A stretch of 64,000 nucleotides of DNA from an uncultured Bacteroidota bacterium (GTDB lineage Bacteria > Bacteroidota > Bacteroidia > Chitinophagales > Chitinophagaceae): assembly GCA_903887415.1 (NCBI GenBank), contig CAISPO010000038.1:124001-188000 (forward strand), read 5' to 3'. The translations under genes and the position numbers were made by a program. This document shows positions 53,770 through 60,112 of the stretch, in pieces (the first letter of the stretch is position 1; each line of letters begins with the position of its first letter). The notes beneath the pieces are model-generated. The model was given only the letters and a program-made list of their open reading frames with translations. It was not told the DNA's origin and ran no database searches.

Positions 53770-54471
53770 TTAGTTCAAATTGATGGGTGGGGTGTTTTGG
53801 TCGGGGGTGGGGATGATGGGGTGCGACATTGTGTTGCTGGTTGGAGTGCTGGCTGGTTCTTCGGGTTTGGGGTTTTGCCAGTTTTCGAGGGCTTCTTCTT
53901 CGGTGGCGGCTTTCTTGCGTTCTTCGTTCAAGGCCTGTTCGTCTTTCTCGTCCTGGTAGCCTTCTATTTTTTCCTGGTTAGAGAATGGGATGTGGCCATT
54001 CTCGTCAAATTCATCGAGGAGGAAATCGTTGGTGTCGATGCCTTTGCGGTACTGCATGTAGTACTCGATGTGGGGCAATAGTTTGTCGGCGAGGTCTGCG
54101 TCGCGTTTGCGAAGGCCGGTGAGGAAGAAGTTGAACAGTTCCATGCTCTCATTTACTGCCATGCGGTTCTTTAGTTTTTTTACGGCGCTGGCGAGCTTGT
54201 TGATAGCATCGGCCTGGCGGGGAGTGAACGAGGCAGCGCCGTTGTGCGGGCCCAGCATTTGTGTGGCGTACTGGTCTATGAGGTGGTAGCATTTTTCTGC
54301 AACGAGGGATGGCATGTGGCGGGCTGACTTGCGGAGTTGCTCCCAGTTGCCCTCCTGGCACCAGAGCATGATGCTGCGGCGGTTGACGCCGACCTGGTCT
54401 GCGATCTCTGATTTGGTCATATTGGTCTGGAAATAGAGGTGCTGTGCCTCTTCGCGCTGTTCGTGTTTCAT
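53770..54471 (-). CDS. HTH protein resembling phage terminase small subunits
   Basis: N-terminal HTH YFQTNMTKSEIADQVGVNRRSIMLWCQEGNWEQLRKS; charged/proline-rich tail; no other phage genes nearby. Confidence 0.6.
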   Translation of the reverse strand: MKHEQREEAQHLYFQTNMTKSEIADQVGVNRRSIMLWCQEGNWEQLRKSARHMPSLVAEKCYHLIDQYATQMLGPHNGAASFTPRQADAINKLASAVKKLKNRMAVNESMELFNFFLTGLRKRDADLADKLLPHIEYYMQYRKGIDTNDFLLDEFDENGHIPFSNQEKIEGYQDEKDEQALNEERKKAATEEEALENWQNPKPEEPASTPTSNTMSHPIIPTPDQNTPPINLN

Positions 54472-54832
54472 AGGGCTTTTTTGCTTTTTGGGGCATAAAG
54501 GTAAATTGGCCTTTGTTCACCGAACGAATTTTGGGGATATCTTGTTTGGGAATCTGGTGGGATGCAGGCGGGGTAAGGGAAGTGTTTTTCGGGGTTGCCC
54601 ACAAAGATCAGGATTTGTGGATAATGTCTGAACCTCCGATTAGCCAAGATTAACTGATTTACTGTTTAAAATTGTCTGAATCAGAATGGCCAGAACCTGC
54701 CTACCGGCAGGCAGGTTAGCGGATTTTCAGGATTGTGTTTTTGCAATAAATTTGTTGCTAAAATATTTTGGCAATGGTTTTGTTGCTAAGGTGACTGCGA
54801 TGCGGAGCCAGTTTGTCATCGACAGTGAATTC

Positions 54833-54879
54833 GCCAGTCGGGAGACTGGCATCCTCTCCGACGTAGTCAATAGACTACG
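54833..54879. repeat. pair of 7-bp-stem hairpins
   Basis: GCCAGTC-ggga-GACTGGC (54833-54850) and CGTAGTC-aata-GACTACG (54862-54879). Confidence 0.8.
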
Positions 54880-54999
54880 CCGAACTATTTCCGAACTATT
54901 ACTTTTTTATATCGTGAACACTACTGGCAACGGGGGCAATAGCCTACGCCGAACTGTTGCTTTTTTATTTCGTGAACACTACGAGCAACGGGGGGGGGG
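54868..54999. repeat. imperfect tandem duplication (about 65 bp x2) ending in a G10 tract
   Basis: caatagactacgccgaact...cgtgaacactactggcaacggggg / caatagcctacgccgaact...cgtgaacactacgagcaacgggggggggg. Confidence 0.8.
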
Positions 55000-55017
55000 T
55001 TCTTTTCTTGCCAGAAA

Positions 55018-55356
55018 TTAATAAAATAGTACCGGCACGTCTTGGAATTGATAGAATCTGTAGTCGATCATTACAACGGTAATGCTATAATTTTTTAAGC
55101 CATTTATTTGTATAGAATAGGGCCCGGGAGGTATGCCGTAGAAAAAATAAAATCCAAACTCATTTGTTATAGCTTGACTTACTAATACCCAATTATTATA
55201 TGCATTAAGCGCATACAAACCAATGCTTGCATTCGGGTATGGAACGTATGTATTATTATATGCAACTTGCACCTGTCCTCTTAAATTGGTACCAGGATAT
55301 TGAGCCTTTGCCGATAAGACGATGAGTGAGAAAATAATAAACAGTATTTTTTTCAT
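55018..55356 (-). CDS. secreted carboxypeptidase-regulatory-like small protein
   Basis: signal peptide; LRGQVQVAYNNTYVPYPNASIGLYAL...TNEFGFYFFYGIPPGPYSIQINGLKNYS. Confidence 0.6.
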   Translation of the reverse strand: MKKILFIIFSLIVLSAKAQYPGTNLRGQVQVAYNNTYVPYPNASIGLYALNAYNNWVLVSQAITNEFGFYFFYGIPPGPYSIQINGLKNYSITVVMIDYRFYQFQDVPVLFY

Positions 55357-55368
55357 AAAATATATATA

Positions 55369-56001
55369 TTATTCTACAGTAGTAGGTGGTCCAAAATTTT
55401 TAGTTTCTTTAATTCCTCCTTCTTGAGACTTTAAAGAATTTCCTTCTTCCAGTATTATCTTCCCCAATTTAATTATCCTTTTTTCGTTATCTACTTGTAT
55501 TTTCATGTTGTCATTATCTTCCGTCGAGGACAAACAAATTTGTCGTGATAAATATGCTGTAGAATCCTCACACTTAAATTGGAGGTAGTTTAAATTCTTG
55601 TGTATGCTAAAAATAATATGGTTTGGGTCGCCCGTTATTTTAGAATCTATTGTTTCCGGCGTTAAAATAAATTGAATTTTTTTAATTTTGTCTTTGTCTT
55701 GCCATATATTCCCGTTTCTATCTTTTAAAAAAATTGAAGATTGAACAACCCATTCTTTATTCTTTTCGTCGTTTATATTTTCAACAATATACGGAATAGT
55801 ATATTTGTAGTCTGCAATAAGGATGGCAATATAGAACCCAACCGCTCCCACTGCGTTTATTTTAAATAATCCAATAGTCCCAGTAATATTGAACTTTTGA
55901 TCTGGAAAAATCTTATATAATATTATCGCTGGAACTAATGGCAATAATATTGAAATAAAAAAAAGTAAAAAAGAATAAAAAACACCTGAAGCCATTGTCA
56001 A
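55369..56001 (-). CDS. hypothetical membrane-anchored protein
   Basis: two N-terminal TM segments, soluble C-terminal domain; 12 bp upstream of 55356. Confidence 0.6.
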   Translation of the reverse strand: MTMASGVFYSFLLFFISILLPLVPAIILYKIFPDQKFNITGTIGLFKINAVGAVGFYIAILIADYKYTIPYIVENINDEKNKEWVVQSSIFLKDRNGNIWQDKDKIKKIQFILTPETIDSKITGDPNHIIFSIHKNLNYLQFKCEDSTAYLSRQICLSSTEDNDNMKIQVDNEKRIIKLGKIILEEGNSLKSQEGGIKETKNFGPPTTVE

Positions 56002-56069
56002 AGATATTTTATCTGCATTATTATACTAACTTAAGCTATAAAGCATTATTTTATTTGTATGTGTTTACA

Positions 56070-57680
56070 TTAACCGGACAAATATTCATATACAGAAGCA
56101 AGGGCAGCACTTTTCATTCGTCGTGCTCGTTTTTCTCCAATATAGTACGCCTCACGCAATTTATTTTCAGTTGCTGTGAGAATTTCTCCAATTGAATTTA
56201 TCCCAATTTTCTTCAATTCTATTTTTTGCCATTGTGCTAAATCTAATACATCTATGTTTTTCTTCATTTCCCTAGCAAGAACGGTACTTGTATCAACCTC
56301 GGAAAAATTCGATAAAATTGATATCTCAGCATACATTGAATGATTCATCCCATATTCGGACATGCGTCGAAGATCAAAATTACGGGCAATATTTAGCGCC
56401 GTATTTGTCGGCACTGTTTCCAATGCAAACAACGTTCCAAGGTTTACTTGATAACGTGTGCCTATTTCAGATCTTGTACCCTTTATGCCCGGAGCATTTT
56501 CTGTAACAATGCCAGTATATGTCAATAATCTCAATGCTTCTTTTACTGCTTGTGGGCTATCTCGGTGAACCCAAAAAAAGCAAGTAGTTTTCTTACCTTC
56601 CTCTAAATACCGTGTATTCTTTTTTTGTATTACCGGTAATGCTTCAATTTCCATAAATTTTCGTCCCCAATCAATAATTTCTTTATGCCCTGAATATTTA
56701 TCACTAAGTAAGGAATGTTCAGACCAAATTTCAATTTTGTAATATTCGCGAAAAATTTCGTTTACTTGGGTTGAATTCATTTTGCCCGCACGCGCAAGTG
56801 TCTTCAATAGGATTCTCGGATTCCCAGATGCCGCATACGACAATATTTTGAAGTTGTTTATATTTTTTGAAATGGCTTTAAGTAGATCACTACTTGCGTC
56901 CATTTGTTTTTCCACTATTTCTCGCATATTTTCAATATAGTTTTCATGAAAAATATCACGATCTAAATAGTAAAATGTTGCGTCATGGATTGGTTGAAAT
57001 GAATCGCCATAGAAAGTAACGCCAGGATAAACTGCCGCGTTGCAACTTATATATGGCATTCTCAAATCTCTAAAGAGAGTAAAAAATTGTCTTTGTTGTT
57101 CAGGTCTAAAAATATGAGCGGCTTCATCAATTAGAAAATTAAATCTCTTTATTTTGAACTGCTGGCAAATTTCTTCGATTGCGTCTTTAAAATCTTCTAT
57201 AGTTGGCAAACCTTTTATATCAACTTCAACTTCCGCAGTCTGCCAAGATTCCTCGAAAGATGAAATGATTTTTTCTATTCGAGTTTCACCATTATTTGAA
57301 ATTGATCCGCCTGCGATAATTGAGATAGGGACACTATTTGATGTTAAATATCCTTGCTTTTTTAGACACCGTATTATTTTCCCACAAAGTATTGAAAGCA
57401 TCCAATTAGCAAATTGCCTTGTATTTTTCGTGTGAATTAACGAACTTCTATTGAAGGAAACATAAATTGGCATTACTTTATCATGCGAAAAACTTATGTA
57501 TTGCTCGTGTTCTGCTATCCGAAATAAAAACGACTTTCCAACGCCTCTACTACCTACTAATACTACTGGTGATGGGGCTTTCAACGCATCAATGATTGTC
57601 CGATCTAAAGTTGTTTCCACGAAAAGATCCTCAAGCTCATCATTTGAAATGTCTTCTGTACGATATATTAATTCTTGCAT
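56070..57680 (-). CDS. ORC1/Cdc6-like AAA ATPase with C-terminal helix-hairpin-helix
   Basis: Walker A VVLVGSRGVGKSFLFR; Walker B RFNFLIDEAAHIF; C-terminal LKKIGINSIGEILTATENKLREAYYIGEKRARRMKSAA. Confidence 0.75.
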   Translation of the reverse strand: MQELIYRTEDISNDELEDLFVETTLDRTIIDALKAPSPVVLVGSRGVGKSFLFRIAEHEQYISFSHDKVMPIYVSFNRSSLIHTKNTRQFANWMLSILCGKIIRCLKKQGYLTSNSVPISIIAGGSISNNGETRIEKIISSFEESWQTAEVEVDIKGLPTIEDFKDAIEEICQQFKIKRFNFLIDEAAHIFRPEQQRQFFTLFRDLRMPYISCNAAVYPGVTFYGDSFQPIHDATFYYLDRDIFHENYIENMREIVEKQMDASSDLLKAISKNINNFKILSYAASGNPRILLKTLARAGKMNSTQVNEIFREYYKIEIWSEHSLLSDKYSGHKEIIDWGRKFMEIEALPVIQKKNTRYLEEGKKTTCFFWVHRDSPQAVKEALRLLTYTGIVTENAPGIKGTRSEIGTRYQVNLGTLFALETVPTNTALNIARNFDLRRMSEYGMNHSMYAEISILSNFSEVDTSTVLAREMKKNIDVLDLAQWQKIELKKIGINSIGEILTATENKLREAYYIGEKRARRMKSAALASVYEYLSG

Positions 57681-57682
57681 AA

Positions 57683-58396
57683 TTAGCTAACAATTGAAAA
57701 ATATGAACGAATAGGTTCCACATGAGAAAGTTGATCAAGTACACAACTTTCGACAACCTTTTTTTCTTTTTCAGATAAATAGGGTAAATATCGTAAACAA
57801 AAAGCAAATGTGAGGATACTCTTCATTGTGTCTGCCTTTTCATTCCATTCTTTTATGAGTTCATCGCTATAGTTTAACGTATCTGGAACTTTACTTTGAG
57901 TGGAAATATTCCCATGAACATATTCGGAGCATTCTCGATAAACTTTTGTAGCTAACACTTTAAAATGTTTTATTTCGTCTTTAAGTTCAGGGAAAAATGC
58001 AACACAAAAATTATGGGAAAAAATACCTTTATCGTCATCACAAATCTCCGCCCAATAAGTATCTCTACCTCCTTTCATCCACAACCTCAGCTCCATCTCT
58101 TTTGTTGAAAATAAAACGCCAGTTAGTGTCCTTTCAAAGAAAAAACGTAAACCCGTAAATGCCAAATTATATAGTCCAAGTACGCCGGCGAGTAAACTCA
58201 TTTGATACTCTCTTAACGCACTTTTGAACATGATATTTTCAGGTCTGCTTTCAATGATAGTGTACCATGCGTTGTAATCATCAATTGATGAATGATTTAA
58301 CCCTATCCGAGGAATATTTTCGTCAGTTAAACTTTGCGTTGTAATATTTTGACACTTTGCTACGAATGACAAATATGTTTCTTTGATATCACCCAT
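57683..58396 (-). CDS. uncharacterised helical protein with HEPN-like R-x6-H motif
   Basis: 237 aa; YRECSEYVHGN (R-ECSEYV-H); 2-nt gap to the downstream ATPase gene. Confidence 0.55.
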   Translation of the reverse strand: MGDIKETYLSFVAKCQNITTQSLTDENIPRIGLNHSSIDDYNAWYTIIESRPENIMFKSALREYQMSLLAGVLGLYNLAFTGLRFFFERTLTGVLFSTKEMELRLWMKGGRDTYWAEICDDDKGIFSHNFCVAFFPELKDEIKHFKVLATKVYRECSEYVHGNISTQSKVPDTLNYSDELIKEWNEKADTMKSILTFAFCLRYLPYLSEKEKKVVESCVLDQLSHVEPIRSYFSIVS

Positions 58397-58848
58397 GATT
58401 TGTATTTATGTATATCCTGAATTAAATATTATAATCGTGAATGTAATTTAGACGCTAATAATTTTCCGTCCCCCTAAGTGTCCTTTTTCAAAAAAATGAC
58501 AATATAAGCGAACTGAATAGTATGTTAAACAAATCTGGATTAAAGGTAAACCTGTATTTCTCTGAAAAAACCGTACTTCTCCCGTTTTTTTTACGAATAT
58601 TTTGTGTAAATGCAGTGCATCCATATATCATACATTTCTCCTTCGACAGTAATAGTAAATAATGGATCATTCCTGGCAGTTCATCACGCGAGAAGGCCAA
58701 CGCGCACGACCTTCGGCGGGCTCAGGGAGAATGCTTCTATCAACTAAGTGCTAATTCTCGGGAGATTTCTCCACTGCGTTCCGCTGCTCTGCACTTCGTT
58801 GCGAAGAGGTCCCCCTCCTTTTTACCTTTTACCTTTTTTTATTTTCAA

Positions 58849-58942: not shown

Positions 58943-60112
58943 ATGAAGCGTATAGCGATATTGGGGTCAACGGGTTCTGTGGGTACACAGGCATTGGACG
59001 TGATAGGGGCGCACCCGGAGCTGTTTGAAGTGGAGGTGCTGAGTGCGCATCATAATGCCACGCTGCTGATAGAGCAGGCAAGAAAGTTCAAACCGAATGC
59101 GGTAGTTATTACCGACGACAGCAAGTATAAAGAGGTAAAGGACGCATTGATGATGCTCCCTATAAAGGTGTTTGCGGGGCAGAAGAGCCTTAAAGAGGTG
59201 GTGCAGTGGGACACGATAGATACCGTGCTGGGCGCCATAGTGGGCTTTGCGGGCCTGCACAGCATACTGGCAGCCATAGAGGGCGGCAAGCGCATAGCGC
59301 TGGCCAATAAAGAAACCCTGGTGGTAGCAGGCGAGCTGGTGATGCAGCGGGCAGCCGAAAAGAAGGTAGCCATAATACCGGTGGACAGTGAGCACAGCGC
59401 CATATTCCAATGCCTGGTGGGCGAGGATATGAGCAAGGTGGAGAAGATGATACTCACGGCCAGCGGCGGGCCCTTCCTGGGCAGGAAGCCCAACTACCTG
59501 GTGAATGTAAAGGCCAGCCACGCACTGCAGCACCCCAACTGGAACATGGGCGCCAAGATAAGCATAGACAGCGCCAGCCTGATGAACAAGGGGCTGGAGA
59601 TGATAGAGGCTAAGTGGCTATTTGGGCTGGAGAACGAGCAGATAGAGGTGATCATACATTCGCAGAGCGTGGTGCACAGCATGGTGCAGTTTGTGGACGG
59701 CAGCATAAAAGCCCAGATGGGCCTGCCGGATATGAAGCTGCCCATACAGTATGCGCTGGCCTTCCCGCACCGGATAGACAACAAGTACAAGCGGCTGGAT
59801 TTTAAGGATTTCCCGTCCCTGACATTTGAGCCTGCCGATTATAAAACTTTCCGTAATCTTGCCATCGCTAAGGATGCGCTGTACAAGGGTGGTAATGCGC
59901 CCTGTGTGCTTAACGCGGCAAATGAAGTGGTGGTACATGCCTTCCTGCAAAACAAGGTGGGCTTCCTGGAGATGAGCGAAATGATAGAAAAAACAATGGA
60001 GATGGTGCCGCTGATACCGCACCCCACCATAGAAGATTATGAGCAGAGCGACCGGGAAGCACGGGAGTATGCCAGTGAGTTTTTGAAGAAGAGCCAGTTG
60101 TCTATTTATTAA
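58943..60112 (+). CDS. dxr: 1-deoxy-D-xylulose 5-phosphate reductoisomerase
   Basis: MKRIAILGSTGSVGTQALDVI; ALANKETLVVAGELVM; PVDSEHSAIFQCL; SASLMNKGLEMIEAKWLF. Confidence 0.98.
   Translation: MKRIAILGSTGSVGTQALDVIGAHPELFEVEVLSAHHNATLLIEQARKFKPNAVVITDDSKYKEVKDALMMLPIKVFAGQKSLKEVVQWDTIDTVLGAIVGFAGLHSILAAIEGGKRIALANKETLVVAGELVMQRAAEKKVAIIPVDSEHSAIFQCLVGEDMSKVEKMILTASGGPFLGRKPNYLVNVKASHALQHPNWNMGAKISIDSASLMNKGLEMIEAKWLFGLENEQIEVIIHSQSVVHSMVQFVDGSIKAQMGLPDMKLPIQYALAFPHRIDNKYKRLDFKDFPSLTFEPADYKTFRNLAIAKDALYKGGNAPCVLNAANEVVVHAFLQNKVGFLEMSEMIEKTMEMVPLIPHPTIEDYEQSDREAREYASEFLKKSQLSIY

Follow-up and report, generated by a model that had tools for sequence, protein, structure and literature searches.

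The 64,000-nucleotide stretch analysed here (the window) comes from an uncultured Bacteroidota bacterium of the Chitinophagaceae (contig CAISPO010000038.1, positions 124,001 to 188,000). It contains two adjacent genes, one for an ORC/Cdc6-like AAA+ ATPase and one for a small helical protein, which raise the question of whether such a pair forms a defence system and how it might work. A sequence-only reading had proposed an antiphage or toxin-type module in which the ATPase controls a putative HEPN RNase and which also includes two envelope-like genes.

Conservation of the pair

The pair consists of the following genes.

57683..58396, minus strand: small all-helical HEPN-like, DUF5677-related protein of 237 amino acids, a putative effector (from the open reading frame, motif, model and relatives)
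56070..57680, minus strand: ORC/Cdc6-like AAA+ ATPase of 536 amino acids, a putative DNA-bound sensor or switch (from PF24389, motifs and predicted fold)

The genes are separated by 2 nucleotides. Genomes were scanned by the ATPase only; a two-sequence profile found none, and a three-sequence profile returned 29 loci, a set that was reached via ATPase motifs and is no census. The small protein was outside the query. Its gene lies immediately upstream of the ATPase gene, on the same strand, in all 29 of these loci, with a frameshift in one (L041) and a gap of Ns in another (L016). The sequence-only reading had suggested looking for the pair in other genomes, and the two genes were found together there. 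With the copies on Planktothrix plasmid p2, in a same-phylum genome (L011) and in the window added to those of the scan, the two genes stand together as a unit in 32 of 32 loci, spread over about ten bacterial phyla and one Methanophagales archaeon. The carriers are Bacteroidota, alpha-, beta- and gammaproteobacteria, a deltaproteobacterial metagenome-assembled genome, cyanobacteria, Verrucomicrobia, Campylobacterales, Acidimicrobiales, Nitrospirae, Acidobacteria and Bacillus.

Pairwise distances of the ATPase are correlated with those of the small protein (r = 0.93, Mantel p = 2e-4, 25 pairs), also inside a close group (r = 0.87). The two proteins co-diverge and are inherited together, and the pair is conserved as a true module. 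Its occurrence in related genomes is sporadic (the ATPase in 2 of 300, the small protein in 1 of 200), and we therefore rejected the possibility that it is a housekeeping pair. Searches of phages with either protein gave no match, and no viral contig carrying the ATPase was found.

Decayed copies were also seen. In L041 (9977-11732), the copy with the frameshifted small gene, the ATPase is truncated right ahead of a transposase-like gene, and another copy (L040:5890-7185) has an internal TAA in the ATPase.

The pair had been described as not belonging to any recognised system, and our searches agree. Neither protein matched a named defence system in PADLOC, none emerged from NCBIfam and Pfam searches, and the pair was not found under any name in the literature searched, which covered few subscription papers, preprints or supplements.

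The two proteins

By its sequence and predicted fold, the 536-amino-acid protein is an ORC/Cdc6-type AAA+ ATPase, as had been proposed. It matches PF24389 (ORC-CDC6-like) with 46.7 bits, above the cut-off of 27, and the best stretch covers residues 5-61 only. Walker A (GSRGVGKS, residues 43-50) and Walker B (FLIDEAAH, 182-189) are intact, and GNPR is found at 286-289. The patterns G-x-R-G-x-G-K-[ST], F-hh-DEAAH and GNPR are conserved across 26 ATPase relatives, with the Walker motifs nearly invariant. In a Foldseek search, the AlphaFold2 model (pLDDT 85) matched archaeal Cdc6/Orc1 first (2qby_B, Cdc6/Orc1 bound to origin DNA, E 2.2e-7; then 2qby_A and 2v1u), followed by eukaryotic ORC and then by CED-4 and plant NLR. 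The PF24389 score, the match to the Cdc6/Orc1 fold and the conservation of the pair elsewhere take this assignment beyond chance. The C-terminal helix-hairpin-helix that had been noted is present in Pfam as an HHH_5 match (E 7.9e-4) whose 20.3 bits fall short of the cut-off of 27. More distant ATPase relatives have, as read from their sequences, an extra Cys4 zinc ribbon at the C-terminus.

On proteobacterial plasmids (L005:5935-8684, L006:5953-8508 and L007:6001-8541), a distant zinc-ribbon relative of the ATPase has downstream of it a protein bearing the HEPN-type motif R-H-x3-H; one of these proteins has a weak match to RiboL-PSP-HEPN (E 0.0012). A DNA methylase gene precedes the ATPase in L005 and L007. 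This set of methylase, distant ATPase and R-H-x3-H protein is possibly a separate three-gene system.

For the 237-amino-acid protein, identity as a HEPN RNase is plausible from its motif and its model. In HEPN domains, helix 3 ends with the R-x4-6-H motif, an insert separates this helix from helix 2, and helix 2 itself often carries an acidic residue (PMC3710099). The AlphaFold2 model of the small protein is all-helical (pLDDT 93.3, pTM 0.90), with helices at residues 54-72, 76-96 (carrying R84 and E88), 136-161 (ending at H161) and 178-206 and an insert at 97-135, and its helix order and motif position agree with that layout. R154-x6-H161 is present in the window protein, and R84, E88, Y153, H161 and R202 are invariant in 26 relatives.

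Across Pfam, NCBIfam and PADLOC, the only match of the 237-amino-acid protein was a weak and irrelevant one in NCBIfam, and a Foldseek search of viral structures with its model gave nothing significant. Profile-profile comparison of the small-protein family with RiboL-PSP-HEPN and DUF4145 did no better than controls. For RiboL-PSP-HEPN this holds with a deeper alignment and reversed controls, which were used for DUF5677 as well after shallow tests had proved uninformative. In hhalign, the family aligned with DUF5677 over 127 columns that include both motifs (E 2.5e-5, probability 75%; reversed controls 0.31 and 0.47). The Pfam model of DUF5677 (PF18928) is matched by 8 of the 26 relatives (best E 6.5e-5) and missed by the window protein itself; an R-x3-E helix and a Y..S..VHG motif are common to the two families. 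By these comparisons, the uncharacterised DUF5677 is the nearest relative of the small-protein family. DUF5677 has no assigned function.

Remote relatives of the small protein were found in other arrangements. Two of them (L097:1177-1908 and L098:1468-2178, both on the minus strand) share an operon with a ParA/Soj-like ATPase and a protein of 157-160 amino acids, without an ORC-like ATPase. Partner exchange is typical of ATPase-effector modules, and the swap to a ParA/Soj-like ATPase may define a second module. Another locus (L101:1300-3450) has two tandem proteins of 312-360 amino acids that are remote relatives of the small protein and carry the motifs F-V-H-T-K-G and I-I-H-T-R-G. In L099, a protein similar to these two adjoins a gene that reads like the end of a restriction methylase.

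Genomic context and possible function

In several relatives, the pair is located inside or beside type I, II and III restriction operons and Ssp phosphorothioation operons. For example, one tight operon (L032) contains a DNA methylase, the pair, a BsaWI-type restriction enzyme and a second methylase. The order is DUF4007/SspC/SspD-like genes, the pair and SspE in L026, and DUF4007, a large ATPase, PAPS reductase, the pair, a helicase and a GHKL-type protein on Planktothrix plasmid p2 (L004). In L011 (read from sequence) the order is type III Mod, Res and the pair, and in L031 it is HsdS, an OLD-like ATPase, a PtuB-like protein and the pair. HEPN effectors in restriction, BREX and phosphorothioation operons and ORC/Cdc6 ATPases in defence have been described generally (PMC3710099, PMC10853773, PMC12839542). 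The accessory or defence context that had been suspected is borne out by these relatives and, at the window locus itself, by a variable hotspot (described below). Because the pair travels through about ten phyla and sits in restriction-modification operons, it is probably an unnamed two-gene defence module.

With about even confidence, we favour the reading that the pair is a portable conflict module in which the ATPase is the sensor and the HEPN-like protein the effector of an RNA-cleaving second-line defence. We postulate that the ATPase would assemble on DNA, with the helix-hairpin-helix as its DNA-contacting arm (plus the Cys4 zinc ribbon in some relatives), and would read a cue of infection, which could be invading DNA or the blockage or failure of a restriction/modification system. 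At rest, the ATPase would keep the small protein inactive, and nucleotide turnover or a changed assembly would free it. The freed small protein would be the effector, most likely cutting RNA at a site built around H161 and E88, to which an arginine (R154, R84 or R202) would contribute, and would halt the cell and stop the growth of the phage, serving as a second line of defence after the manner of PrrC/RloC. A more specific proposal, which we make only tentatively, is that the pair represents a widespread unnamed anti-phage system of bacteria and archaea, in which a DNA-bound ORC/Cdc6-type AAA+ ring has direct control of HEPN-like (DUF5677-related) effectors of a new class, whose active site is non-canonical (invariant E88/H161 plus R84 or R202, not the motif arginine), and which is inserted as a back-up in restriction and Ssp systems.

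Several known systems are similar to the pair in some respects. PrrC/RloC and other restriction-linked HEPN RNases combine an ATPase switch with a HEPN-type effector, often in restriction-modification operons, and have been proposed as a second line of defence (PMC3710099). However, in PrrC/RloC an ABC-type (SbcC/Rad50-like) ATPase is fused to a canonical R-x4-6-H HEPN domain, whereas the window pair has an AAA+ ORC/Cdc6 ATPase, a separate partner gene and a motif arginine that is not conserved. The PrrC-like placement in a restriction-modification operon is seen in the relatives L011, L031 and L032 (and in Ssp operons in L004 and L026), not beside the window copy. DUF499 (HmaC), which is related to Type-1 BREX, has a STAND/ORC-Cdc6 AAA+ ATPase and a HEPN domain in DNA-methylation defence operons (PMC12839542, PMC3710099). 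Its ATPase is extended by several winged-helix, alpha+beta and RRM-like domains, and an N-terminal HEPN of the Swt1/Abi2 family is fused to it; in contrast, the window pair is an ATPase of 536 amino acids and a separate DUF5677-related protein. SspC and BrxC of Ssp and BREX are likewise ORC/Cdc6-clade AAA+ ATPases in DNA-modification defence (PMC10853773, PMC12839542), but the pair's ATPase occurs in addition to the SspC-like ATPase in Ssp operons, is smaller than the latter by more than half and is paired with a dedicated partner.

There is also remote similarity in the N-terminal ATPase region to the anti-phage ATPase DS-41 (NF053860; DefensePredictor, PMC13092281), matched by 9 of 26 relatives, and to the P-loop ATPase Sll1717 family (NF047389), matched by 16 of 26. 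The window ATPase is far below both cut-offs (26.9 against 370 bits for NF053860 and 32.7 against 75 bits for NF047389), and the small protein has no match in these families. Lastly, the dyad of the MAE_18760 HEPN protein and ParA/Soj (PMC3710099) is also a two-gene module, of a P-loop ATPase and a HEPN protein, and remote relatives of the small protein are found beside ParA/Soj-like ATPases. However, the window ATPase is AAA+ and not ParA-like, and the small protein is likened to the dyad by arrangement, not by family membership.

Some results weigh against an RNA-cleaving conflict module. The motif histidine is present in all 26 relatives of the small protein and the arginine in 19, with serine (4), glycine (2) or lysine (1) in its place in the others; HEPN families that keep the histidine and lack the arginine are known (Parep1/8 and c2405; PMC3710099). 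None of the HEPN families in Pfam and NCBIfam is matched significantly, a PDB profile search with the small protein returned no HEPN protein, and a Foldseek search of the PDB with its model gave nothing significant (the HEPN protein Csm6 was at rank 20, E 0.93). For these reasons, we term the protein only HEPN-like. Thus, of the antiphage or toxin-type logic proposed from the sequence, the conserved pair and the defence context have held up, and the identity of the partner as a HEPN RNase is not established. The context itself is uneven: at least several of the 29 loci adjoin housekeeping genes (purL, nuoG, secA) with no adjacent defence gene seen, and the genes found beside the window copy included none for restriction. 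The defence context consists of individual loci; 104 neighbour proteins were scanned as a pool against PADLOC and Pfam, which gives tallies per family and not per locus.

The variable arginine and the lack of a HEPN match would also suit a defence module in which the small protein is a non-nuclease adaptor or a DNA- or protein-binding subunit that links the ring of the ORC-like ATPase to a neighbouring restriction or Ssp nuclease, as in BrxC-like and McrB-like ATPases. In L032 and L026 the pair is flanked by modification and restriction genes, and ORC/Cdc6-like ATPases are structural cores in BREX and Ssp (PMC12839542, PMC10853773). We consider such a role rather unlikely. Some copies adjoin housekeeping genes with no neighbouring nuclease seen, so the pair seems able to work alone, and E88, Y153, H161 and R202 are invariant across phyla, resembling an active or ligand-binding site.

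We regard it as distinctly unlikely that the two genes are a toxin-antitoxin addiction pair, with the small protein as toxin, the ATPase as antitoxin or regulator and anti-phage action secondary or absent. The operon is tight and co-inheritance is strict, PIN toxin genes occur in the same hotspot in relatives, and remote relatives of the small protein adjoin ParA/Soj-like ATPases, a layout for which a toxin-antitoxin role has been put forward in another HEPN family (PMC3710099). However, a 536-amino-acid AAA+ protein with a helix-hairpin-helix would be a large and unusual antitoxin, and placement inside restriction operons suggests a functional link to them. A non-defence role, such as replication or maintenance of a plasmid or mobile element by an ORC/Cdc6-like initiator and a helical partner, would fit the ORC/Cdc6 fold, the occurrence on plasmids and the chromosomal copies without a visible adjacent defence gene, but is quite improbable given that most copies found are chromosomal with no replication genes among the neighbours read, that several are inside restriction or Ssp operons, and that the pair is so sporadic in related species.

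If the ATPase does sense infection and control the small protein as its effector, then a broadly distributed unnamed member would join the class of ATPase-sensor-plus-effector defences, and the DUF5677-related family would gain a testable role. The role of ORC/Cdc6-type ATPases, which form the core of Ssp and BREX, would widen to include the control of a dedicated effector. Where the pair separates the methylase of a restriction operon from its nuclease, the idea that it guards restriction is directly testable.

The cassette beside dxr

The pair shares an AT-rich cassette with two other genes. The remaining features of the locus are as follows.

53770..54471, minus strand: terminase-small-subunit-like helix-turn-helix gene, left neighbour of the hotspot
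54995..58810: AT-rich cassette, 34% GC, within the variable hotspot (borders approximate, from alignments of same-genus genomes)
55018..55356, minus strand: secreted protein of 112 amino acids with a weak carboxypeptidase-regulatory-like domain, a passenger
55369..56001, minus strand: protein of 210 amino acids with two hydrophobic segments and a TTG start, a passenger of the cassette
58943..60112, plus strand: dxr (1-deoxy-D-xylulose-5-phosphate reductoisomerase, named from sequence), right neighbour of the hotspot

All four minus-strand genes of the segment that had been described as AT-richer are open reading frames at the coordinates first given for them, and GC content from 55000 to 58810 is 34.0%, compared to 47.9% for the window, the lowest of any 3.8-kb stretch there. 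The two envelope-like genes had been taken as parts of the system. No homologue of either was found beside any other copy of the pair, and none of the 210-amino-acid protein in 60 related genomes. We therefore rejected a four-gene system; on this evidence, the 210- and 112-amino-acid genes share the cassette but not the module.

dxr is present in 26 of 26 same-genus genomes searched. In same-genus genomes, dxr and the genes beyond it align with the window, and the intervening stretch up to the terminase-like gene does not. The terminase-like gene also aligns in some of these genomes, near dxr, and is thus a chromosomal gene that borders the hotspot and does not indicate a prophage; a prophage origin of the locus was rejected. 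The cassette occupies a variable hotspot, an accessory or defence context at this locus. The accessory island proposed earlier is retained in this form, without the terminase-like gene as a phage marker and with flanking repeats that are short and local.

The hotspot of one genome (G015) contains genes for an AAA ATPase, an nSTAND/TPR protein and a PIN protein, arranged collinearly; that of a second (G012) contains an HD phosphohydrolase. A PIN protein is also found in that of a third (G020), where the terminase-like gene is inverted. The stretch from the terminase-like gene to dxr varies by species in the genus (window 54995-58810, L093:3645-8374, L092:8409-10649, L088:6690-7339), and its STAND/TPR ATPase, PIN and HD phosphohydrolase contents in other species are defence-like or toxin-like. 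The repeats at the left border of the cassette (54738-54994) are short imperfect direct copies of 46, 29 and 24 nucleotides, and related species (L088, L090, L092 and L093) have parts of them at about the same position.

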